A DNA stretch of 11,324 bases from Zetaproteobacteria bacterium (lineage in GTDB: Bacteria > Pseudomonadota > Zetaproteobacteria > Mariprofundales > Mariprofundaceae). Positions 438-8,310 of the stretch are shown one piece after another (positions within the stretch are counted from its first letter, which is position 1; each line of letters starts with the position of its first letter). The notes under the pieces were generated by a model. It had not been told where the DNA came from, did not search any database, and was given only the letters and a program-made list of their open reading frames with translations. Where the stretch lies: assembly GCA_021545665.1 (NCBI GenBank), contig JAJRTX010000268.1, positions 1-11,324 of the forward strand. Reading direction: 5' to 3'. Both the position numbers and the translations under genes were made by a program.

Positions 438-538
438 TCGTGTACTCCTGCTAGGTTATTGTGTCGCGCGATCACTAGTTTATCATGTTGGAAACTCCGC
501 ACCAAACGCGGATATTCATACATGTTACCTCCGCACAT
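434..538 (-). CDS. Small unknown protein upstream of and coupled to tad2
   Basis: This is a 34-residue ORF. The ATG at 538-536 follows AGGAG with about 6-nt spacing, and the TGA stop (436-434) overlaps the tad2 start codon. A second ATG at codon 6 is preceded by GGAGGT but with a very short spacer. The product (MCGGNMYEYPRLVRSFQHDK and a further 14 residues) is basic, soluble-looking and matches no family I know. Position, ribosome binding site and stop/start overlap support real translation, possibly as a leader peptide for tad2 or as an independent small protein. The same frame is open further upstream to 895 but runs through repeat arrays, so I reject the longer version. Confidence 0.5.
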   Translation of the reverse strand: MCGGNMYEYPRLVRSFQHDKLVIARHNNLAGVHE

Positions 539-559
539 TTTTCTCTCCTGTAAGTTGAA

Positions 560-604
560 TATACGCTGCGGCGTATAACCCCCTGATATACGCTGTAGCG
601 CATA
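560..604. promoter_or_regulatory. Twin palindromes, probable operator pair upstream of the tad2 operon
   Basis: TATACGC-TGCG-GCGTATA (560-577) is a perfect 7-bp inverted repeat with a 4-bp centre. TATACGC-TGTA-GCGCATA (587-604) repeats it with one mismatch. Starts are 27 bp apart, about 2.5 helical turns. The pair lies 22-66 bp upstream of the 34-residue ORF, where the leftward promoter should be; reading leftward, a TATATT hexamer (563-558) overlaps the first site. This is typical of a dimeric repressor or activator site. The regulator is unknown. Confidence 0.55.
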
Positions 605-722
605 AACAGCTCCCGAATCTACACAGGCATAGTACACCCGGGTAGGCTGTTTTACAAGGCCTGAGGCGGTAAAATATATAATTTTTGGGAAATATATGCC
701 GACATAGATCAACATTCGCTGG

Positions 723-774
723 TATTTTTTTTTCAAAAAAATAGTGACAGGCAGGGGGCTAGGGGGGTACTGGG
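723..774. repeat. A/T inverted repeat next to a G-rich tract
   Basis: TATTTTTTT (723-731) and AAAAAAATA (735-743) form a 9-bp inverted repeat around a TTC spacer. Immediately after, G runs of 2, 5, 6 and 3 occur at 750-751, 754-758, 762-767 and 772-774. An easily melted tract beside a strand-asymmetric G-rich tract could be an unwinding element or a two-tetrad G-quadruplex; only the composition is seen directly. Confidence 0.5.
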
Positions 775-841
775 TGACTCCGTCACTCAGTGACGCAGTG
801 ACAAAATCCGAAGTTACTCTGTTACTTTGGCGAACTGTCAC
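774..841. repeat. GTNAC octamer array 2
   Basis: GTNAC units start at 774, 782, 790 and 798 (GTGAC, GTCAC, GTGAC, GTGAC), then after a one-base phase slip at 813, 821 and 837 (GTTAC, GTTAC, GTCAC). Units 782-794 form the same GTCACTCAGTGAC palindrome as arrays 1 and 5. Confidence 0.85.
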
Positions 842-890
842 AAGTCCAAGGAACCTTCCCAGTCTGACAGATCTATGGTACGTGCGTTTT

Positions 891-958
891 ATCACTGAGT
901 ACTAAGTCACTCAGTTACGTAGTGATTCAGTGTCCTAGTTACTTAGTTCCTTAGTAAG
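891..958. repeat. GTNAC octamer array 3, seven phased units
   Basis: From 906 to 958 the 8-bp phase is unbroken: GTCAC (906), GTTAC (914), GTGAT (922), GTGTC (930), GTTAC (938), GTTCC (946), GTAAG (954), most preceded by TNA. Degenerate ATCAC at 891 extends it to the left. It is the longest array and the most decayed, lying about 100 bp upstream of the first rightward gene. Confidence 0.8.
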
Positions 959-1002
959 CCCAATAAAAATCACGAGGTTCTGATTTTCCGCATTCATATC
1001 AA

Positions 1003-1060
1003 CAGCGGCTCACGCCGCTGGTGCCCTGCCAAAATGTCATTTACTAAGTGGGGGAGAGTA
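1003..1060 (+). promoter_or_regulatory. Hairpin leader A (stem-TCAC-stem-GTGCC, then RBS)
   Basis: A 7-bp stem CAGCGGC/GCCGCTG (1003-1009 with 1014-1020) closes a TCAC loop and is followed at once by GTGCC (1021-1025). The ribosome binding site GGGGGAG and the ATG at 1063 follow 37 nt after GTGCC. It is one of four related leaders in this block. The structure is read from sequence; its function (processing site, mRNA stabiliser, translation control or terminator) is unknown. Confidence 0.65.
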
Positions 1061-1062
1061 GC

Positions 1063-1341
1063 ATGAGCATCTACATTGTATTCATTTCAGCGGGCGTCGG
1101 AGCCAATGGTGAACTCGTTGGCGTTCAAGAAACCAGCAAGCACGGTACGTTCGATGAAGCCACGGACGCTTGCGTTGACTCCTGGGATACCAACGACGCT
1201 ATCCATCCTGACATCTTCTCTTGGGTCAAGTCCACTAAAGACGACACCAAGTACTGGCCTGAAGACTACTGCAAGACACATGGCCAATGCGCCCGAGACC
1301 TCGCTGACTTCCGGCACATGTCTTATGGTACGTCTGCATAA
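1063..1341 (+). CDS. Unknown acidic protein, 92 residues
   Basis: I chose the ATG at 1063 because GGGGGAG sits 6-7 nt upstream; a GTG at 1048 is in frame but lacks a site. The product starts MSIYIVFISAGVGANGELVG and has Ser/Thr/Asp-rich middle sequence with cysteines in TDACVDSW, EDYCKTHG and GQCARDL and a short hydrophobic start. It ends with TAA at 1339-1341. There is no signal peptide or membrane segment. It is the first rightward gene and is preceded by leader A, so it is probably expressed early. I do not recognise a family; the N-terminal strand-like stretch could be the edge of a small alpha/beta fold, but this is a guess. Confidence 0.75.
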   Translation: MSIYIVFISAGVGANGELVGVQETSKHGTFDEATDACVDSWDTNDAIHPDIFSWVKSTKDDTKYWPEDYCKTHGQCARDLADFRHMSYGTSA

Positions 1342-1346
1342 CCGTT

Positions 1347-1386
1347 GGGGGCCTCGTGCCCCTTTCGCGGTGGACAATCGCAGGAG
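1347..1386 (+). promoter_or_regulatory. Hairpin leader B (GC stem containing GTGCC, then RBS)
   Basis: GGGGC (1348-1352) pairs with GCCCC (1358-1362) around CTCGT; here GTGCC (1356-1360) forms part of the 3' arm. The following GTGGACAATC (1370-1379) is identical to the same position in leader C and lies in a second small hairpin, GCGG (1367-1370) with TCGC (1378-1381). The RBS AGGAG follows at 1382-1386. GTGCC ends 34 nt before the ATG at 1395. Confidence 0.55.
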
Positions 1387-1394
1387 TGCAACTC

Positions 1395-1568
1395 ATGTTC
1401 ATCATTTACTTTAATATGGTCGCTATTCACGCAGTCTTCTCACGTGACGTAGCCGAAGACTACATCCGGGACAACATAATTGCTCTTGAGGCGTTCGAGG
1501 AAGAGTTCATCGTCGAATACGTGGATCTAGCTGCAGCACAAGGGGTAAAAGCCTCTACCAATCCATAG
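1395..1568 (+). CDS. Unknown small protein, 57 residues
   Basis: The ATG at 1395 follows CAGGAG with good spacing; an in-frame ATG at 1356 would place the start inside leader B and is rejected. The product begins with a hydrophobic stretch (MFIIYFNMVAIHAVFSRD) and continues as a glutamate-rich helix (NIIALEAFEEEFIVEYVDLAAA). It may be peripheral to the membrane, with a short N-terminal hydrophobic segment of about 14 residues and an acidic cytoplasmic helix. It stands alone between two hairpin leaders. No family is recognised. Confidence 0.65.
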   Translation: MFIIYFNMVAIHAVFSRDVAEDYIRDNIIALEAFEEEFIVEYVDLAAAQGVKASTNP

Positions 1569-1590
1569 TTTTACGGGCTTAACCACCCTG

Positions 1591-1648
1591 GGTATCACTG
1601 GCTTACGCCAGTGGTGCCCTTTGTGAGTGGACAATCACTAATAAAGGA
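1591..1648 (+). promoter_or_regulatory. Hairpin leader C (stem-TTAC-stem-GTGCC, second hairpin, RBS)
   Basis: CACTGGC (1596-1602), TTAC loop, GCCAGTG (1607-1613), then GTGCC (1614-1618). With G-T pairs the stem extends outward to GGTAT/GTGCC, 12 bp in all. A second hairpin GTGA/TCAC (1623-1626 with 1635-1638) encloses GTGGACAA, matching leader B with compensating stem changes. An AAAGGA site and the ATG at 1656 follow; GTGCC ends 37 nt before the ATG. Confidence 0.65.
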
Positions 1649-1655
1649 TATTGAC

Positions 1656-1949
1656 ATGGACATGATACTTCAAGGCTTCTTTGCAGCGGCCACTGTGCTG
1701 TACTTGTGCAGCTACATCGGCTTCCGTCGCATCTTCGCATACGCGTTCGTCCTGGACCTCGCCGTTACTGGTGGGTTCATCTGGATGTTCGCTGGTTCAT
1801 ACGCAGGTATGATGACCGGTGTTATCGCCGGACTCATATTCTCCGCGTTCATGCGCATTGGCCGACGTCTGTTCGGCATCGAGCGCCTGCAACTCGTCCG
1901 CGGCTATGGTCATATACTCCCCAGTGTAATCTGGGTAAGAAGCAAGTAA
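1656..1949 (+). CDS. Small phage membrane protein, 97 residues
   Basis: The start at 1656 is preceded by AAAGGA; ATG at 1662 is an alternative. Residues about 4-22 form one membrane segment, and 26-66 are hydrophobic enough for two more (FAYAFVLDLAVTGGFIWMF and AGMMTGVIAGLIFSAFM). The C-terminal tail from MRIGRR onward is basic and would face the cytoplasm by the positive-inside rule. The layout resembles a type of small unknown membrane protein found in many phage genomes. Function is unknown; location in the inner membrane is inferred from hydrophobicity. Its stop overlaps the start of a 25-residue ORF (TAATG). Confidence 0.75.
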   Translation: MDMILQGFFAAATVLYLCSYIGFRRIFAYAFVLDLAVTGGFIWMFAGSYAGMMTGVIAGLIFSAFMRIGRRLFGIERLQLVRGYGHILPSVIWVRSK

Positions 1950-2026
1950 TGACCATTACTGTAGTAAATAAGCGCGGTGGTATCGCCGCTTTGGCTAAAC
2001 AAGGAGACCTTAACCTCGTATGCTAG
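1949..2026 (+). CDS. Possible 25-residue peptide coupled to the membrane protein
   Basis: ATG at 1949 overlaps the preceding TAA (TAATG) and the frame runs to TAG at 2024-2026, giving MTITVVNKRGGIAALAKQGD plus five residues. No good ribosome binding site precedes it beyond the overlap, so translation would rely on termination-reinitiation. It is followed by an 88-bp gap before the SLOG gene. It could be a real micro-protein or a chance frame. Confidence 0.3.
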   Translation: MTITVVNKRGGIAALAKQGDLNLVC

Positions 2027-2114
2027 TGTGCACCTAAAGCTTGCCACGGTGACATCATCAAAGCATATATCGAGCGGCTTAACCATCCCACCAGCAAACA
2101 ATAAGGAGAACACA

Positions 2115-2618
2115 ATGAATAGGCTCTATGCCGGTATTGGCGCGCGTAATACGCCAAGCAATATACTCGAAGTCATGACACAGCTTGCTGCTGCACTTGA
2201 GCACGATACTTGGATCTTGCGCAGTGGTGGCGCTCGTGGTGCTGACTCTGCTTTCGAACGTGGTGTTGTAGACCCAACTAATAAGGAGATATTTCTGCCT
2301 TGGCGCGGCTTTAATTCCAGTGATTCACCTCTGTGCGAAATTACTAATGAAGCCTATGCATTGGCACATAGCTTCCACCCTGCTTGGGAGAGATGCAGTA
2401 CTGCAGCTCGCAAGTTCCACGCCCGTAACTGTTACCAGATACTGGGTGCTACACTGCAGTCGCCAGTTAAAATGGTGGTGTGTTGGACGCCCAACGCATT
2501 AATAACTGGTGGTACCGGGCAAGCGTTGCGTATCGCACAACACTACAACATCCACATAAGAAATCTCGCGGATGATTCTGTGCTTGATGACATTCTTGAA
2601 TACATTAGGAGTAAGTAA
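2115..2618 (+). CDS. Stand-alone SLOG (DprA/LOG-like) nucleotide-binding protein
   Basis: I start at the ATG at 2115, directly after AAGGAGAACACA; the longer frame upstream has no site. The 167-residue product shows the phage SLOG pattern: YAGIGARNTP (5-14), the phosphate-binding LRSGGARGADSAFERG (35-50), KEIFLPWRGF (57-66), FHPAWERCSTAARKFHARN (87-105), VVCWTPNALITGGTGQALRI (121-140) and a final INVRNL-like strand. The fold is Rossmann-like and is shared with DprA, LOG enzymes and the sensor domain of Thoeris ThsA. Phage members are of unknown function; they probably bind a nucleotide or nucleotide-derived signal in the cytoplasm. It starts a coupled run, overlapping the next ORF by TAATG. 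Family call is strong, ligand unknown. Confidence 0.85.
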   Translation: MNRLYAGIGARNTPSNILEVMTQLAAALEHDTWILRSGGARGADSAFERGVVDPTNKEIFLPWRGFNSSDSPLCEITNEAYALAHSFHPAWERCSTAARKFHARNCYQILGATLQSPVKMVVCWTPNALITGGTGQALRIAQHYNIHIRNLADDSVLDDILEYIRSK

Positions 2619-2746
2619 TGATTGAAACAATCGGATTCATTCTGTATCTCGCCCTCTGCTACGTAGCCGGCTATATGTTCGGGTTGTGTATCGCAGAGCT
2701 AATTAACCGACATGAATGGACACACGAGGTATTTACTCATGTCTAA
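2618..2746 (+). CDS. 42-residue single-pass membrane protein
   Basis: ATG at 2618 overlaps the SLOG stop (TAATG) and the frame ends at TAA 2744-2746. An AGGAGTAAGTA site lies just upstream. Residues about 5-28 (IGFILYLALCYVAGYMFGLC) form one clear membrane helix, followed by a short hydrophilic tail with several His and Glu. The gene overlaps the start of the next one by 8 bp. Small one-helix proteins like this are common in phage early regions; no function can be assigned. Confidence 0.65.
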   Translation: MIETIGFILYLALCYVAGYMFGLCIAELINRHEWTHEVFTHV

Positions 2747-3002
2747 GTTATACAACGAACTTACCGGGCTCGTCACTGATTACGATCTGGAGGCTAATGT
2801 CGATGAGTGGATTGTATGCAGCGCGCCCACACCAGGCCACCCTATGGTGGGCCGCTCTTGCCATAATGACATCCGTTTGGCAAAGATCGCCCAGATCAAC
2901 CTCTTTCTTGAGGAAGATATTGATGCATGGATTGAATACATTCCTGCATTCGACGGGCCGAATATTGAGACACAACTTACGGCCGAAAGGAGAATGTCAT
3001 GA
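2739..3002 (+). CDS. Unknown acidic protein, 87 residues
   Basis: The start ATG at 2739 (MSKLYNELTG) follows GAGGT with a normal spacer and overlaps the end of the membrane ORF. An in-frame ATG at 2712 lies deeper inside that ORF and has no site. The product is acidic, with two Trp-containing helical-looking stretches (NVDEWIVC and EDIDAWIEYI) and no membrane segment. It ends in ATGA overlap with the exported protein gene. I recognise no family. Confidence 0.7.
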   Translation: MSKLYNELTGLVTDYDLEANVDEWIVCSAPTPGHPMVGRSCHNDIRLAKIAQINLFLEEDIDAWIEYIPAFDGPNIETQLTAERRMS

Positions 3003-3463
3003 TAGACAACGAATCAAAACTCACCAAGTGGACGATAGCAATATGCTTCGTCCTCATTGCTATGTATTTCGCTACTCCTACTCGTGCAGACGACTTGGAC
3101 TGGAGTGACTTCGGTAATTACACCACCGGAGAGCTACTGAACAAATTCCTTCAGCGGAATGACATGGATCAAACCAACAAAGTTATTGATCTGTGGATCG
3201 ATGGTTGGTTTGATAGTATGTATTCCTTCTACTCGTATGACGGCGTCTTAGACTCAGAGAGCCTAAGCGCCCTCTACGCTTGTACACGCAAGCGATGGCC
3301 TACTCCTGGCGATGCACGCCGTACGCTATTAGAGTGGGGAGCCAGCCAAGAGCTGAAAGATGTGTCAGTCTCGATGTCTCTGTATTTCGGAATGCGCCTC
3401 GCCTGCACATCTGTCTTGGGTGAGGTCGTCACGTCCGAAGAGAAAGAGAGGACAAGCAGTTAA
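2999..3463 (+). CDS. Exported protein, 154 residues, distantly Rap1a/Tai-like layout
   Basis: The start ATG overlaps the preceding TGA (ATGA). The N-terminus has a signal peptide: positive KLTK, a hydrophobic core (WTIAICFVLIAMYFA) and a likely cleavage after TRA near residue 30, so the mature part would be periplasmic or secreted. The mature protein has one Cys in LYACTRKRW and one in MRLACTS. A central WIDGWFDSMYSF helix followed by these two cysteines recalls the layout of Rap1a/Tai-type immunity proteins, but the match is weak and I would not name it so. A lysis, superinfection or envelope role is possible. It is the last gene before leader D. Confidence 0.75.
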   Translation: MIDNESKLTKWTIAICFVLIAMYFATPTRADDLDWSDFGNYTTGELLNKFLQRNDMDQTNKVIDLWIDGWFDSMYSFYSYDGVLDSESLSALYACTRKRWPTPGDARRTLLEWGASQELKDVSVSMSLYFGMRLACTSVLGEVVTSEEKERTSS

Positions 3464-3480
3464 CCGAGAAAGCAAGAAAT

Positions 3481-3534
3481 CCAGGGTTTACACCCTGGGT
3501 GCCTTGTGTTTTGTGAGTCATTACCAGAGGAGAC
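3481..3534 (+). promoter_or_regulatory. Hairpin leader D (stem-TTAC-stem-GTGCC, then RBS)
   Basis: CCAGGGT (3481-3487), TTAC loop (3488-3491), ACCCTGG (3492-3498), then GTGCC (3499-3503). The stem sequence differs from leaders A and C at several positions yet pairs perfectly. TTTGTGAGT (3510-3518) matches leader C, and GTGA/TTAC (3513-3516 with 3521-3524) can form the second hairpin. The RBS AGAGGAG and ATG at 3539 follow; GTGCC ends 35 nt before the ATG. Confidence 0.65.
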
Positions 3535-3538
3535 AGAT

Positions 3539-3985
3539 ATGGCTCTAAGAACAGTGTCAGTTGATTCAGGCACACCCGCGCAAATATACGCTCGGAGGAT
3601 AGATATGGAAAGGCATTGGCGTTCTTTCGCTGACCCACTACATATCCTTATCCGGTACGAAGAGCGTGCGTTTGTACAATTCAACCTCGCGAACTACGAC
3701 GATCCAATTGTGGATCGAGAGTTCATTAGTCGATACATCAACGAAAGAATAGGAGATAAACATGAGCAACGAACATGCACGCATATCAGTCGGTATGGAA
3801 GCAAACCAGCCGCCGTCCCCCGAGTTACCTGCCGCTCCAGTTCAACCGTTAGCGACAGAGCAGCCGAGCGCGCCAAGTGTAAGTGGGTCAACGGCGCTCG
3901 CGTGGTGGCACGCGATGAAGTACGAGTGGAAGCGATCGGCCCGGGGCAATCAGTACTTGGCGCCGCAGGAATCATATGTCGCTGA
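3539..3985 (+). CDS. Unknown protein whose 3' end overlaps the next gene by 224 bp
   Basis: The ATG at 3539 follows AGAGGAGACAG; a second in-frame ATG at 3605 follows GGAGG with ideal spacing, so two products are possible. The first 74 residues (MALRTVSVDSGTPAQIYARR to RYINERIGDK) look like a normal protein with a mixed helix/strand pattern. The frame then fails to stop where expected: the next gene's RBS and a TAA (3757-3759) are present but in another frame, and it runs 74 residues further with an Arg/Ala/Ser-rich composition typical of an off-frame reading. Either the stop was lost by a small indel or mutation, or this is genuine overprinting. No family recognised. Confidence 0.6.
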   Translation: MALRTVSVDSGTPAQIYARRIDMERHWRSFADPLHILIRYEERAFVQFNLANYDDPIVDREFISRYINERIGDKHEQRTCTHISRYGSKPAAVPRVTCRSSSTVSDRAAERAKCKWVNGARVVARDEVRVEAIGPGQSVLGAAGIICR

Positions 3986-4550
3986 TGTACTCGACCGGGC
4001 AGACGTATACACAACGCGCATCACAGCTCGTCTTACCAAGGACGACTTCGCTGAATTCGACGCCGCCGTCGTGTCCGTTCAGGAATCCATCCAGAACGAA
4101 GATGCATACGATATGACCGGCACTGAAGGTCATGGCCTTCGCCGCTACTACCTCGGTCGTTTAGTCTTGGCTCGCAAGATCTGCGGTACCACAGCAGTAT
4201 CTGCTGAGCACCGTACGATAAACGAGATGAGTCGGCGTGATGGTGATGTTGTGAAGATGCAGGCCGACTCCGAAGGCTATTACGCTGCTGATATTGAGAA
4301 GCGTGAGAGCTGGGGACAGAAGGCAGTTCGCCTCGAGTATATCGTGAAAGCGATTGCTGACGGTGAAGTCATTCCGACCGACACCACAGCGCTCAACGAG
4401 TTGATCTCCAAGCGAATCACGAATGGCAAGAACATCGGTCTTGGTGATGAAGCCTTCGAGCTTGGCAAGACGCTGCAACGCCCGCCGCAAGCCGTAGTTG
4501 CTAACATAGCAGCTCCCTCTCGCGAAGAGTTGCTGGCAATGACCGCATAG
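3762..4550 (+). CDS. Unknown 262-residue protein with Pro/Ala-rich N-terminus
   Basis: ATG at 3762 follows AGGAG (AGGAGATAAAC) with good spacing. Residues about 15-45 are Pro, Ala and Ser rich and probably disordered (PPSPELPAAPVQPLATEQPS). From about 46 on the protein is folded-looking, charged and mostly helical, with WWHAMKYEWKRSARGNQYL, a TARLTKDDFAEFDAAVVSV segment and a long helical C-terminal part ending in REELLAMTA. No membrane segment, no metal-binding Cys/His cluster. It is the largest gene of the first block and ends it, just before the terminator. A recombination or DNA-binding accessory role is possible from position only; I do not recognise the family. Confidence 0.8.
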   Translation: MSNEHARISVGMEANQPPSPELPAAPVQPLATEQPSAPSVSGSTALAWWHAMKYEWKRSARGNQYLAPQESYVADVLDRADVYTTRITARLTKDDFAEFDAAVVSVQESIQNEDAYDMTGTEGHGLRRYYLGRLVLARKICGTTAVSAEHRTINEMSRRDGDVVKMQADSEGYYAADIEKRESWGQKAVRLEYIVKAIADGEVIPTDTTALNELISKRITNGKNIGLGDEAFELGKTLQRPPQAVVANIAAPSREELLAMTA

Positions 4551-4561
4551 GTCTTCTGGTG

Positions 4562-4595
4562 GCGACGACGCGGATCAACTGTACGCGAAAGTCGC
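4562..4595 (+). other. Two-tier hairpin in the gap before the polymerase block
   Basis: GCGAC (4562-4566) pairs with GTCGC (4591-4595), and inside it CGCG (4569-4572) pairs with CGCG (4584-4587) around an 11-nt loop, leaving a small internal loop. It sits 12 bp after the stop of the 262-residue gene and 6 bp before a longer hairpin. Together they could be a structured 3' end or a short RNA. Confidence 0.35.
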
Positions 4596-4600
4596 TTGTT

Positions 4601-4637
4601 GAAGGGCTAGGCACTTCGGTGCCTGGTCCTTCATTTT
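4601..4637 (+). terminator. 14-bp hairpin with TTCG loop, intrinsic terminator
   Basis: Positions 4601-4614 pair with 4619-4632 without a gap: 12 Watson-Crick and two G-T pairs, closed by C(TTCG)G, an exceptionally stable tetraloop. A short T run (4634-4637) follows. The upper stem is AGGCAC/GTGCCT, so GTGCC, the motif shared by leaders A-D, is again in a hairpin upstream of a gene. The T run is short, so termination may be partial. Confidence 0.65.
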
Positions 4638-4676
4638 AGAATCACCCACAAGCCGTGGGCATAACTGGAGAGCATC

Positions 4677-4946
4677 ATGGAATTACAATCACTGGTAAAG
4701 TACAAGATACATGGGATTAACAGTGTTGGTGGTGTTACTCGATCATCTAACAACAACATATTCTATGATTCGTATAAACAAGCACATGAACAATGCATGG
4801 AATACATGCGTAGGCCTGGTTCCGTCGGTTTCGTTATAATGAAAACCTGCGCCATCATTCGAGCAGCTACTCCCCCACTCGAAGTACACGTTGTCCAAGG
4901 TAGCGGACGTATTGTTCCATTGCAAAACACTCTAGCCGATGAATAA
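4677..4946 (+). CDS. Unknown protein, 89 residues, upstream of the polymerase
   Basis: ATG at 4677 follows TGGAGAGCATC. The product begins MELQSLVKYKIHGINSVGGV and contains a hydrophobic strand (SVGFVIMKTCAIIRAATPP) that is too polar and short for a sure membrane segment. A small CCCAC/GTGGG hairpin lies about 20 nt upstream of its ribosome binding site. Its stop overlaps the polymerase start by 8 bp, so the two are probably translated together. No family is recognised; a small accessory protein for replication would fit the position only. Confidence 0.7.
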   Translation: MELQSLVKYKIHGINSVGGVTRSSNNNIFYDSYKQAHEQCMEYMRRPGSVGFVIMKTCAIIRAATPPLEVHVVQGSGRIVPLQNTLADE

Positions 4947-6828
4947 TCTATTTATTGACTACGAAACCTTTTGGGACGTGGGCTATAGCCTTCGTTCCCC
5001 AAAGATATCAACCACTGATTATATTCACGATAGCCGTTTCGCTATACACGGTGCGAGTGTAGCGTTCGACGGCGATACACCTAAGTGGTTGAACTACGCA
5101 GACCTCAAGAATATGTTTCACCAACTAAAACACACAGGTGAAAAAGTACGTTTGGTCTGTCACCATATGCTGTTCGACGGATATATTACAACGCATATCT
5201 TTGGTTACGAGGCCACTGATTATTTCTGCACAATGGGAATGATAGAAGCACTATTCCAAGGAGGTGTGGGCCGAGGTCTTGATGAAGCCATGACCACACT
5301 GTTGGAGTGGGAAACCGGTAAAACAGACATACTCAAGCGCACTAAGGGTAAGTACTGGAAACAGATGACACACTCCGAACAAACCGAAATGATTACCTAT
5401 GCCAACAAAGATCTACGTGGAACACAGTCACTCTTTCGCAGGTACGCGGCTCTCTTACCGGACGACGAGTGGAAAATCATGAGTACTATACTCAAAATGT
5501 TTTGCCATCCGCGCCTAGTATTTAATGAAGCCCTATTGGCTTCTGCGTTACAGCGCGCACATGACGATCGCGATTCGCGAGTAGAGAACGCAATTACCTA
5601 TTTCAACTGCACAGAGGACGACCTACGCAAGGCCCCATTCCTGGATCTCATCAAATCATGCGGTATCGCAGTACCGATGAAAAAATCACCCTCTGTCGAA
5701 GGAAAAATGATCCCAGCACTTGCAAAGACCGATCAGGGATTTCAAGATCTATTAGAACACGAAGACCCAAGAGTAGCTGCACTTGCCGAGGGACGGCTCG
5801 CAGTAAAATCAACTCAGGGCATTACACGGGCTCGACGCTTCTTGGATCTGCAGCACAAAGTCGGTATTTTACCAGTCGCGTACAACTACTACCGGGCACA
5901 CACCGGAAGACTCTCCGGCGCCAACAAAATCAACTTGGCAAACCTGAAACAAAACTCCGATCTACGGAGAGCCATCGAAGCGCCCCCGGGCTTCGTCCTC
6001 GCTGTTGCTGACTCTAGTCAAATTGAGTGCCGTGATAATGGATACCTCGCCGGTCAAGAAAGCCTCATGAAGCTCTTTCGCGAAAAGAAAGACCCATACA
6101 ACGACATGGCTTCTACCATCTTCGGGCGGGAAATCGACAGGAAAGAAAGGGACGAAGCCGGCGGATACCCGAATTTCATAGAGGGATTCATAGGCAAAAC
6201 AGCAGTACTTGGACTCGGCTTCCAGATGGCCGGACCGAAATTCAAATGGACTTGTGAAATGGGTGCTAAGACTCGCCTTGGTATTGATTACGAAATAGAT
6301 TTGGATGAATCTTACCGTATTGTAGATATCTACCGGCGAAAGAACTACATGATCGAGAAAAGCTGGAAACGTTACGAAGAGTGGCTACATCGTATGGTAC
6401 TCAACGATGCCCCTTTCCATTTTGATTACGGCGATGGGTGCTTTCAGATTGAACCAAAAGAAAACAAAATATATTTCCCCAACGGTACCTATCTCTACTT
6501 CCCATGTCTCTCATACGATGCCGGTTCATTTACATACGTCAAAAAGCTCGGCAAGAAATATGTCAACAGATATATTTATGGAGGCAAGTTATGTGAAAAT
6601 ATCGTGCAAAAGCATAGCCGTGACATCGTTGCCTGGCAAATGCTTAACATCGCAGAGCGATATCGTGTTGTCTTGCATACGTATGATGAAAACGTAGCAT
6701 TGATCCCCGAGACAGAAGCAGAAGAGGGAACACAATGGCTTATTAACGAAATGAAAAGGTGCCCGTCGTGGGCAGCTTCACTGCCGCTCGACGCTGAGGG
6801 TGGCTACGCAAAGGAGTATTCGAAATGA
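4939..6828 (+). CDS. Family A DNA polymerase with 3'-5' exonuclease
   Basis: The 629-residue product is a full phage PolA for genome replication. The exonuclease domain has FIDYETF (Asp7, Glu9), HHMLFD (Asp80) and YANKD (Tyr154, Asp158), so proofreading should be intact. Polymerase motifs follow: HTGRLSG (321-327), motif A ADSSQIECR with Asp358, motif B GKTAVLGLGF with Lys420, Leu424 and Phe428, and motif C HTYDENV with Asp583. Leu424 is the equivalent of E. coli Phe762. The residue four before Lys420, normally Arg (E. coli Arg754), is Gly416, and the motif C His is Tyr582. There is no 5'-3' nuclease domain, as usual in phages. No strong site precedes ATG 4939; it overlaps the previous stop, implying coupling, and ATGA links it to the next gene. 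Confidence 0.95.
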   Translation: MNNLFIDYETFWDVGYSLRSPKISTTDYIHDSRFAIHGASVAFDGDTPKWLNYADLKNMFHQLKHTGEKVRLVCHHMLFDGYITTHIFGYEATDYFCTMGMIEALFQGGVGRGLDEAMTTLLEWETGKTDILKRTKGKYWKQMTHSEQTEMITYANKDLRGTQSLFRRYAALLPDDEWKIMSTILKMFCHPRLVFNEALLASALQRAHDDRDSRVENAITYFNCTEDDLRKAPFLDLIKSCGIAVPMKKSPSVEGKMIPALAKTDQGFQDLLEHEDPRVAALAEGRLAVKSTQGITRARRFLDLQHKVGILPVAYNYYRAHTGRLSGANKINLANLKQNSDLRRAIEAPPGFVLAVADSSQIECRDNGYLAGQESLMKLFREKKDPYNDMASTIFGREIDRKERDEAGGYPNFIEGFIGKTAVLGLGFQMAGPKFKWTCEMGAKTRLGIDYEIDLDESYRIVDIYRRKNYMIEKSWKRYEEWLHRMVLNDAPFHFDYGDGCFQIEPKENKIYFPNGTYLYFPCLSYDAGSFTYVKKLGKKYVNRYIYGGKLCENIVQKHSRDIVAWQMLNIAERYRVVLHTYDENVALIPETEAEEGTQWLINEMKRCPSWAASLPLDAEGGYAKEYSK

Positions 6829-7009: not shown

Positions 7010-7216
7010 ATGAACACTTTATTAAAGATAGCAATCGGTTGGGTCGTGTGGAACGCCGGAGTACAGATATTTGCTCACCTTACGACCAACGCTATACCTT
7101 CCGTATCAGGGGCAACTAGCGCAGTTGAGTTTGCGAATGGTGCGATGATGGCTGCATACCTGTTCGGTGTCCCAATTCTAACCACGCTCTGGATACTAGG
7201 AGAAAGCGATGAGTAA
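7010..7216 (+). CDS. Small membrane protein, 68 residues
   Basis: ATG at 7010 follows AGGGAGAACGCAC. The product (MNTLLKIAIGWVVWNAGVQI onward) has two hydrophobic segments, about 5-24 and 46-62 (AAYLFGVPILTTLWILG), joined by a Ser/Asn/Thr-rich loop, and a short acidic tail. It would sit in the inner membrane as a hairpin. Its end overlaps the exonuclease start by 8 bp. It stands beside the interrupted membrane gene, so the two could act together, but nothing in the sequence shows this. Family unknown. Confidence 0.7.
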   Translation: MNTLLKIAIGWVVWNAGVQIFAHLTTNAIPSVSGATSAVEFANGAMMAAYLFGVPILTTLWILGESDE

Positions 7217-7916
7217 CTTCGATTTCAGTCGGGTAAGCGCAAGCGATCAACCCCGAAACAACTGCGAAGTGATGATTGATATTGAAACCTTCGGCACCGA
7301 GGTCGGGGCGCCGGTGATAACAATCGGCGCAGTCCTGTTCGACCCCTACGCCAACGATAGCAGCAAAGAGCTATTACGCAGATCGTTCATGCGTAGGATC
7401 GACATCAGTAACACTCTGCAAATCGGAAAAAATATCAGCGGTGGGACAATGCGTTGGTGGTTTGAGCAGAGCGATTCGGCAATCAAGGCATTGGTAGGTA
7501 ATGATGCCGTTACTGCCGAAGCAGCATTCAAAGATCTGGAGGGATACTGTAATGAGCGAGGTTCGTTCACGAACAAAAAGTTTTTCAGCAATATCACTGA
7601 CTTTCCCAAGTGCTCCCGGTTCTGGGCCAAGGATCCAGACTTTGACATGCGCCTCATGCAGTACTACTACGAACACCCCGACATTTCGGCCAAAATGCCA
7701 TGGAACTTCTGGTCCTGCCGTTCAGTGCGGACACTGCAAGATTTGGCATGGCCTATGGGCGGGTTGGAACGACCGAGCTTCGAAGTCCCCGGTGTTGCGC
7801 ACGATGCAGCTTGGGACGCCATTACACAAGCAATGACTGTACAGGCAGCAATGCACCGACTCGGCCTCTCAAGAGACCAAGACGTCCAGTTCGATAGTTG
7901 GGACGGTAATGATTAG
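7209..7916 (+). CDS. DEDDh 3'-5' exonuclease (Rv2179c-like, PF16473 type)
   Basis: The 235-residue product carries the DEDDh motifs in order: MIDIETFGT (Asp24, Glu26), WAKDPDFD (Asp144/Asp146 region) and VAHDAAWDA (His198, Asp203). The segments APVITIGAVLFDP (34-46), GGTMRWWFEQS (78-88) and CRSVRTLQDLAWPMG (170-184) fit the Rv2179c-like family of RNA/DNA 3'-5' exonucleases found in many phages. It would degrade single-stranded nucleic acid or trim RNA, with two metal ions, in the cytoplasm. ATG 7209 follows TAGGAGAAAGCG. It sits three genes after the polymerase in one run, so a role in replication or nucleotide recycling is likely. The polymerase already proofreads, so this is an additional activity. 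Its stop overlaps the AP2-like gene. Confidence 0.88.
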   Translation: MSNFDFSRVSASDQPRNNCEVMIDIETFGTEVGAPVITIGAVLFDPYANDSSKELLRRSFMRRIDISNTLQIGKNISGGTMRWWFEQSDSAIKALVGNDAVTAEAAFKDLEGYCNERGSFTNKKFFSNITDFPKCSRFWAKDPDFDMRLMQYYYEHPDISAKMPWNFWSCRSVRTLQDLAWPMGGLERPSFEVPGVAHDAAWDAITQAMTVQAAMHRLGLSRDQDVQFDSWDGND

Positions 7917-8310
7917 ACGAAGGTGGTCAAAGCGAGTCAGGAGATACACATACCAGCTGACACACAGAGGGAAATACCGCGGAACATTTTCAACCCAAGA
8001 AGAAGCCGAAGCTACGATAACGGCAATTGACCGAGATGGCGAAATCACTCCCCGGGAGAACCAACTATCGGCTACTGCGACAGGACACAAGTATATATCT
8101 TTTGATGGAGGAGAGCTACATCGCAAAAAGAGATACCGGGTGCGGCTGTGCCAGAAATGTGTTGGGTGGTTCCATACTCTAGACGAAGCAATATCTGCCA
8201 GAGACATCGCACATAGTGTCTTCGTCAGGACGGGCCTAGTAGTGAAGATACGCTCAACGGGAAATGTGGGTGGTCCGAAAACTACGAGCCCAGCAAAACA
8301 GCATACCTAA
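7909..8310 (+). CDS. AP2-like DNA-binding protein, two degenerate repeats
   Basis: ATG at 7909 lies inside the end of the exonuclease gene. The 133-residue, very basic product has two AP2-like units. The first (about 13-41) reads YTYQLTHRGKYRGTFSTQEE and EAEATITAID; the second (about 59-104) has a longer first part and then RYRVRLCQKCVGWFHTLDEA followed by ISARDIAHSVF. This is the three-strand plus helix pattern of AP2/ERF and phage AP2 domains (YRVRI, then GxFxTxEEA, AxxAxD). In phages such domains often accompany HNH homing endonucleases; here there is no HNH motif (no His-Asn-His cluster), so it is either a stand-alone DNA binder or a remnant. It closes the polymerase block and is a candidate regulator. 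Confidence 0.7.
   Translation: MIRRRWSKRVRRYTYQLTHRGKYRGTFSTQEEAEATITAIDRDGEITPRENQLSATATGHKYISFDGGELHRKKRYRVRLCQKCVGWFHTLDEAISARDIAHSVFVRTGLVVKIRSTGNVGGPKTTSPAKQHT

Follow-up and report, generated by a model that had tools for sequence, protein, structure and literature searches.

A family of UNAC-loop hairpins in front of genes in four related phage contigs, a possible punctuation element of polycistronic mRNA

The DNA analyzed here (the window: 11,324 nucleotides, positions 1 to 11,324 of contig JAJRTX010000268.1 in assembly GCA_021545665.1, deposited as a Zetaproteobacteria bacterium) is phage-like and carries three copies of a hairpin with a UNAC tetraloop, each upstream of a gene. In total, the hairpin family comprises 27 copies in four phage contigs, namely the window (three copies) and the relatives L002 (ten), L164 (eight) and L197 (six). 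The covariation of the stems, the copies in relatives and a wobble bias towards the mRNA strand support the view that the hairpin is a selected RNA structure. We tentatively favor the reading that the family is a cis-acting punctuation element of polycistronic phage mRNA, which would resemble a stop-proximal repetitive extragenic palindromic (REP) hairpin joined to an independent 5′ leader. An earlier note on this DNA had described hairpins at 1003, 1596 and 3481 with 7-bp stems, TYAC loops, GTGCC directly behind them and an ATG 35–37 nt further on, and all of these are present as described (the ATG lies 37, 37, and 35 nt 3′ of GTGCC, respectively). Perfect 7-bp hairpins (loop of 3–8 nt) followed by GTGCC occur three times in the window and not at all in 200 dinucleotide shuffles, and perfect 7-bp hairpins with a 4-nt loop, whatever follows them, occur seven times versus a mean of 0.6 in the 200 shuffles.

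The relatives are phages from IMG/VR. L002 was located by polymerase alignment (its polymerase is 56% identical to that of the window), L164 by a hairpin pattern search, and L197, together with the near-identical L198, by alignment of gene 3 orthologs. A hairpin was counted as a copy if it had a UNAC loop and at least seven upper-stem pairs; four of the copies are array-leading (first) ones and 23 are internal. Two UNAC hairpins inside genes (L002 8524 and L164 10585), an L197 hairpin with a TTGC loop (7244) and the whole of L198 (99.9% identical to L197 across 8297 bases) were excluded. The TTGC hairpin, at L197 7244-7269, is a related intercistronic hairpin with a start codon after it at 7308. 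The four loci contain 96 plus-strand hairpins with at least seven pairs and a 4-nt loop; 29 of these are capped by TNAC and seven by the next class, TNGC. A covariance model built from the 27 copies recovers the same sites and no others of comparable score on both strands of the window and of the relatives’ contigs; weak matches outside the count lie inside an L197 gene (E 0.003; also in L198) and in the L002 contig (E 0.71).

The 27 copies align gap-free over 44 columns. The loop is U-N-A-C by selection, and all four bases occur at N. UNAC loops adopt a GNRA-like U-turn fold (PMC5311481), and ribosomes as well as phage boxB RNA contain UMAC loops (PMC12550061); the loop of the family would by analogy fall into this GNRA-like class. 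The 7-pair upper stem has 186 Watson-Crick cells out of 189, the other three being G-U. In the window, L002 and L164, the majority of internal copies have a GGYAY-type 5′ arm below this stem that pairs with GTGCC or GTGCT, whereas in L197 5′ arms of the GATGG or GGCAG type pair with TTGTCC or CTGTC. GTGCC, which the earlier note took for the unifying tag, is therefore usually the lower 3′ arm of the element, a part that differs between phages. Likewise, the 7-bp stem at 1596 exists as proposed but is only the upper part (1596-1613) of a 13-pair helix (1590-1619), in which GGGTAT pairs with GTGCCC, with wobbles at pairs 8 and 10, and the GTGCC directly after the upper hairpin is the lower 3′ arm.

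At pair 8, 22 of the 27 copies have a wobble (U-G in 18, G-U in four), one has a Watson-Crick pair and four are unpaired. The 3′ strand reads GNUGY in every copy, including the array-leading ones that have no 5′ partner for it. The lower stem forms in register (at least five of seven pairs) in 21 of 23 internal copies versus none of the four array-leading copies; of the two exceptions, the stem of L002 6371 is complete with a single bulge, and that of L164 13123 is poor. Continuous helices of 13–17 pairs span 30–38 nt. The tail before the ribosome-binding site (RBS) is T-rich, with 37% T versus 23–26% in the loci. A second hairpin masking the RBS was considered and showed no consistent effect, and a pseudoknot between the loop and GTG was ruled out by reasoning, there being no linker nucleotides that could span the stem.

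Over the 14-pair helix, 91.3% of the cells are paired and 11 pairs show two-sided changes (89 double-change cells), with a covariation score of 0.663. In 500 shuffles, the paired percentage, the number of double-change cells and the score were never reached; the number of double-change pairs was reached 15 times and the number of pair types 40 times. When the 3′ partner was slid by 1–3 columns as a control, 32.5–46.6% of the cells paired. Each of the 27 copies has a more stable fold than shuffles (z −5.8 on average, −2.2 for the weakest), and when the 23 internal spacers were folded alone, the hairpin was within the minimum-energy fold of each. The leaders of gene 3 provide a direct comparison of homologous copies: relative to the window, two-sided changes are found at five positions in L164, four in L002 and six in L197 (one of the five in L164 is a pair that is open in both L164 and the window), and the leaders in the four phages keep 13 or 14 of 14 pairs. 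The earlier proposal that the covarying stems reflect a selected RNA structure, for which missing copies in related phages or unpaired homologous stems had been named as counterevidence, thus agrees with what the relatives contain.

Since upper-stem pairing was itself selected for, the seven lower pairs and the open flanking positions of the pattern search are the fairer tests. The search pattern fixed three inner pairs, the loop and GGTGCC, and left four bases on the 5′ side and three of the four on the 3′ side free. It gave 61 matches in the loci, of which 13, 25, 10, 2, and 11 have 0, 1, 2, 3, and 4 complementary flanking pairs, respectively. The 11 matches with four pairs lie in the window (two), in L164 (one) and in L002 together with two overlapping pieces of its contig (eight, corresponding to four distinct sites), and none was found outside these three phages. 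A scan of genome contigs with the pattern gave two matches, in Streptomyces and Mycobacterium, which we regard as chance. The lower stems of the 23 internal copies comprise 95 Watson-Crick pairs, 49 G-U, two A-C and 15 other mismatches, compared with nine, three, four, and 12, respectively, in the four first copies. The ratio of 49 G-U to two A-C indicates that the coding-strand RNA is the folding molecule in the internal copies; the same argument has been applied to another element (PMC2864571).

All 27 elements lie outside genes, either intergenic or before the first gene, and on the coding strand, which is in line with the earlier suggestion that they mark genes not coupled to an upstream gene; the array-leading copies have no listed gene just upstream on that strand. 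The distance from the upper stem end to the next start codon is 37–48 nt in all 27 (mean 41.4, standard deviation 3.1; mean 41.3 with the L002 start at 3449). Two of the start codons, ATT at L002 3449 and ATC at L164 9513, are our choices, being the best-placed apparent starts after the RBS behind the element. The internal copies occupy junctions of 68–96 nt, and none of the 25 junctions of at most 12 nt has an element, which is partly trivial. The outer foot of the hairpin (minimum-energy fold, small internal loops allowed) lies no more than 15 nt after the upstream stop codon in 21 of the 23 internal copies, with a median of 6 nt; for the upper-stem foot alone, this is the case in 16. Between −60 and −14 upstream of the element, no position exceeds 0.28 bits of conservation, an argument against a promoter. 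The placement favors a control of translation or RNA stability over a promoter function.

Under the punctuation reading, the full hairpin near the stop codon would close the upstream expression unit and prevent coupling, while the upper hairpin with its T-rich tail would act as an insulated, independent ribosome-loading leader of the next unit. The first copy of an array would require the leader half only, which would explain its missing lower 5′ arm. We favor such a two-part element because the internal copies share the stop-proximal placement of REP elements and the first copies have no lower 5′ arm but retain the tail, the GNUGY strand and the upper hairpin. Structure and geometry are properties of the sequences themselves; the roles of the two halves and the two-part mechanism we infer, and the region is presumably expressed early. 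A phage transcript carries many tiny genes, each expressed at a level of its own. A 68–96 nt spacer whose hairpin covaries, lies at narrow distances from the stop and start codons and has distinct first and internal forms could serve as a model for intercistronic insulation of genes.

REP elements of the stop-proximal class lie within 15 nt of a stop codon, with ribosome stalling and an exonuclease barrier reported (PMC12306157). The family resembles REP elements as short extragenic palindromes present in several copies per genome (here 3–10 per contig, all 27 outside genes), and its internal copies resemble the translational class in their distance from the stop codon. Unlike REP elements, it is found in phages, it also stands before first genes at a narrow distance from the next start codon, and its stem covaries instead of following a consensus, only the UNAC loop (selected for) and the GNUGY strand being universal. 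The element thus fails one defining REP feature, the sequence consensus among copies.

Several observations weigh against the punctuation reading. The related loci L200 and L201 carry gene 3 without the element (in L201, at 7975-8000, and in its L200 counterpart, the gene 3 homolog, 56% identical, follows a 26-nt spacer), so the element is not essential. Eight junctions of 53–165 nt are also free of it (window 1341, 1949 and 4550; L002 5046 and 9860; L164 8663 and 12539; L197 7235). We looked for other hairpins in seven of these (all except window 1949) and found stable ones at window 4600, L002 9894 and L197 7244, hairpins of another type (B, Table 1) at window 1348 and L164 8670, and weak ones only at L002 5079 and L164 12543. 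In two internal copies the distance from the stop codon is 21 and 35 nt; L164 13123 has only two of seven lower pairs in register and window 3488 has five of seven, weak ones. The unpaired probability of the RBS region averages 0.50, a value without a control set. A REP-like placement by itself also leaves the shared loop class and the GNUGY strand unexplained. Finally, the UNAC loop and the upper-stem pairing were selection criteria, and because some of the copies are paralogs and all derive from four contigs, not all covariation events are independent.

A more specific variant, which we consider unlikely, is that an uncultured phage clade uses a dedicated code of RNA punctuation. A factor of the phage or its host would recognize the UNAC-capped hairpin with its nearly constant pair 8 wobble and its GNUGY strand and would split the polycistronic mRNA into units that are translated independently; only elements that have to close off an upstream gene would be given the lower 5′ arm.

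Two other explanations are serious rivals, namely processing by an RNase III-like enzyme and recognition of the UNAC loop by a protein. Phage T7 has RNase III sites between its cistrons, and a host or phage double-strand-specific nuclease could in the same manner cut the hairpins to yield cistron-sized mRNAs. The elements are intercistronic, multi-copy and on the sense strand, minimum-energy folds contain interrupted helices of up to 22 pairs, and it would be plausible for the first copy and the cleavage products to share a 5′ hairpin. Like the T7 sites, these are hairpins between genes of one transcript. However, 16 of 23 helices have 12–17 pairs, and classical RNase III sites have longer ones; moreover, processing has no need for a shared tetraloop class or the GNUGY strand, and cleavage is hypothetical here. 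We rate this explanation as improbable, though to be taken seriously. The loop class and the 3′ strand are best explained by the other rival, in which an RNA-binding protein of the phage or its host recognizes the GNRA-like UNAC loop, as boxB is recognized by N proteins; one regulator would then control all leaders, or the hairpins would carry an antitermination complex. The prevalence of TNAC loops with all four middle bases, the retention of GNUGY even without a pairing partner and the UMAC loops of phage boxB RNA (for example phi21 CUAACC with N peptide; PMC12550061), where a short stem carries the same class of loop, point to such a protein. Unlike boxB, the elements are not enriched in boxA (nine of 27 versus 35% of 1200 random places), and their spacing tracks the stop and start codons. 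Antitermination requires one site per operon, whereas 3–10 copies are present per contig here. Protein binding as the role of the family appears rather doubtful to us on this balance.

Partial terminators or attenuators, which would step down transcription along the operon, are a still weaker candidate. Nine of the 27 elements score above 0 with a terminator formula, L197 5646, L197 6995, L002 8812 and L002 4491 outscore the terminator-like hairpin at window 4600, and Element D is among three terminator-like sites in window 500-4800. The remaining 18 score below 0 and all four first copies below −39, so that the family as a whole lacks the intrinsic terminator feature of a GC-rich hairpin directly followed by a U tract, and the three sites in window 500-4800 compare with 3.3 in shuffles. 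Partial termination may apply to single copies and is unlikely as the role of the family. Hairpin promoters, as used by the N4 virion RNA polymerase, or other single-strand DNA sites would account for a shared-loop hairpin followed by conserved bases. With the G-U to A-C ratio of the internal copies, the template strand would bear C-A mismatches; little sequence is conserved upstream, and the distance is fixed relative to the start codon. We therefore consider this possibility very remote.

Among known phage elements, the start-associated sequence (SAS) of Cluster K mycobacteriophages, 13 bp long (GGGATAGGAGCCC) and typically 3–7 bp before the start, is also repeated 5′ of a subset of phage genes, and SAS with its extended form (ESAS), which has a 17-bp imperfect inverted repeat, is mostly kept at related genes (PMC3203893). 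The family differs in being a tetraloop hairpin 37–48 nt upstream of the start, and GGGATAGGAGCCC has no match with up to two mismatches on the plus strand of the four regions. Rfam searches gave no match in the window at the gathering threshold and none in window 950-4700 up to E 5; up to E 5, L164 has nine and L002 three matches, all far below the gathering scores and some overlapping elements. Among the open-access papers listed in literature searches, none was seen to describe the element.

The covariance model had no match up to E 1 in 79 loci of polymerase relatives (1.2 Mb), none in pieces of KPP25, RHph_TM3_14A, Bhz59, PAE1 and SI01, and none in the loci L200, L201, L202 and L001. At the DNA level, the window has no match in the phage collection records, named phages included. 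Homologs of its polymerase in large protein data reach 80% identity, and 136 gene 3 homologs were found in protein data from genomes and metagenomes. The element could mark a phage clade that has these gene 3 homologs in protein data and no DNA-level match in the phage collection.

The features of the window around the elements are listed in Table 1.

Table 1. Hairpins, motifs and genes in the element-bearing part of the window.
Feature	Coordinates	Strand	Remarks
Element A	1003..1025	+	CAGCGGC stem, TCAC loop, GCCGCTG, GTGCC directly after; hairpin itself 1003-1020; first copy of the window array, without lower 5′ arm
Leader tail	1026..1062	+	includes RBS; reaches ATG at 1063
Gene 1	1063..1341	+	92 aa, MSIY...
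B hairpin	1348..1362	+	GGGGC-CTCGT-GCCCC, 5 pairs; other type than the family
GTGGACAAT motif	1370..1378	+	5′ of gene 2 RBS
Gene 2	1395-1568	+	
Element C	1590..1619	+	13-pair hairpin, TTAC loop at 1603
GTGGACAAT motif	1627..1635	+	5′ of gene 3 RBS
Gene 3	1656..1949	+	97 aa
Element D	3479..3503	+	9 pairs, TTAC loop at 3488, then GTGCC; hairpin core 3481-3498
Gene behind D	3539..3985	+	MALRTVSVD...
Terminator-like hairpin	4600..4633	+	UUCG-capped; 5′ of gene at 4677; outside the family

The lower stem of Element D is irregular and weak. Two hairpins that had been grouped with the family do not belong to it: the B hairpin has no UNAC loop and a different, 5-pair stem, and the hairpin noted at 4601 is UUCG-capped and terminator-like, with a different stem and likewise no UNAC loop. 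A second B copy precedes another gene in L164 (at 8670). B and C do have GTGGACAATC in common, as noted before; the covarying mini-hairpin proposed for it is weakly supported, its flanks being mostly invariant. GTGRACAAT occurs nine times in the scanned phage contigs, always on the coding strand and in intergenic spacers; eight occurrences lie between a hairpin and the RBS (two in the window, six in L164) and one in an element-free L002 spacer.

PHROGs matches in the window are a phage DNA polymerase (4939-6828) and a DprA-like protein (2115-2618). For gene 1, PHROGs and Pfam searches gave no match; a homolog was recognized in L002 at 3066 by reading translations. Gene 3 has orthologs in L164, L002 and L197, each with its own element in front, and the counterparts of the gene behind D in L164 and L002 likewise stand behind elements. 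A partial scan of 20 proteins of the relatives, several of them without any match, named no RNA polymerase or antitermination protein.

A AAGGAACCTTCC block is found once per locus (window 848-859, L002 2880, L164 8200, L197 5176), within an extended non-coding segment 5′ of the first element and surrounded by GTGACT-type repeats; this segment is a candidate origin or control region. Window 1950-2110 contains, judged by eye, a decayed remnant of a DUF4326-type gene (PF14216), shortened and with an in-frame stop, which is intact at L002 6422 and L164 11535. The open reading frames 3539-3985 and 3762-4550 of the window, which are in different frames, share an overlap of 224 nt; L002 (224 nt) and L164 (152 nt) show this arrangement too, with overlapping ends that look unlike. 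Window 7209-7916 encodes a phage exonuclease, whose L002 counterpart (L213 4518-5225) matches PF16473, a 3′-5′ exoribonuclease family, and could act on RNA ends that the hairpins would protect.

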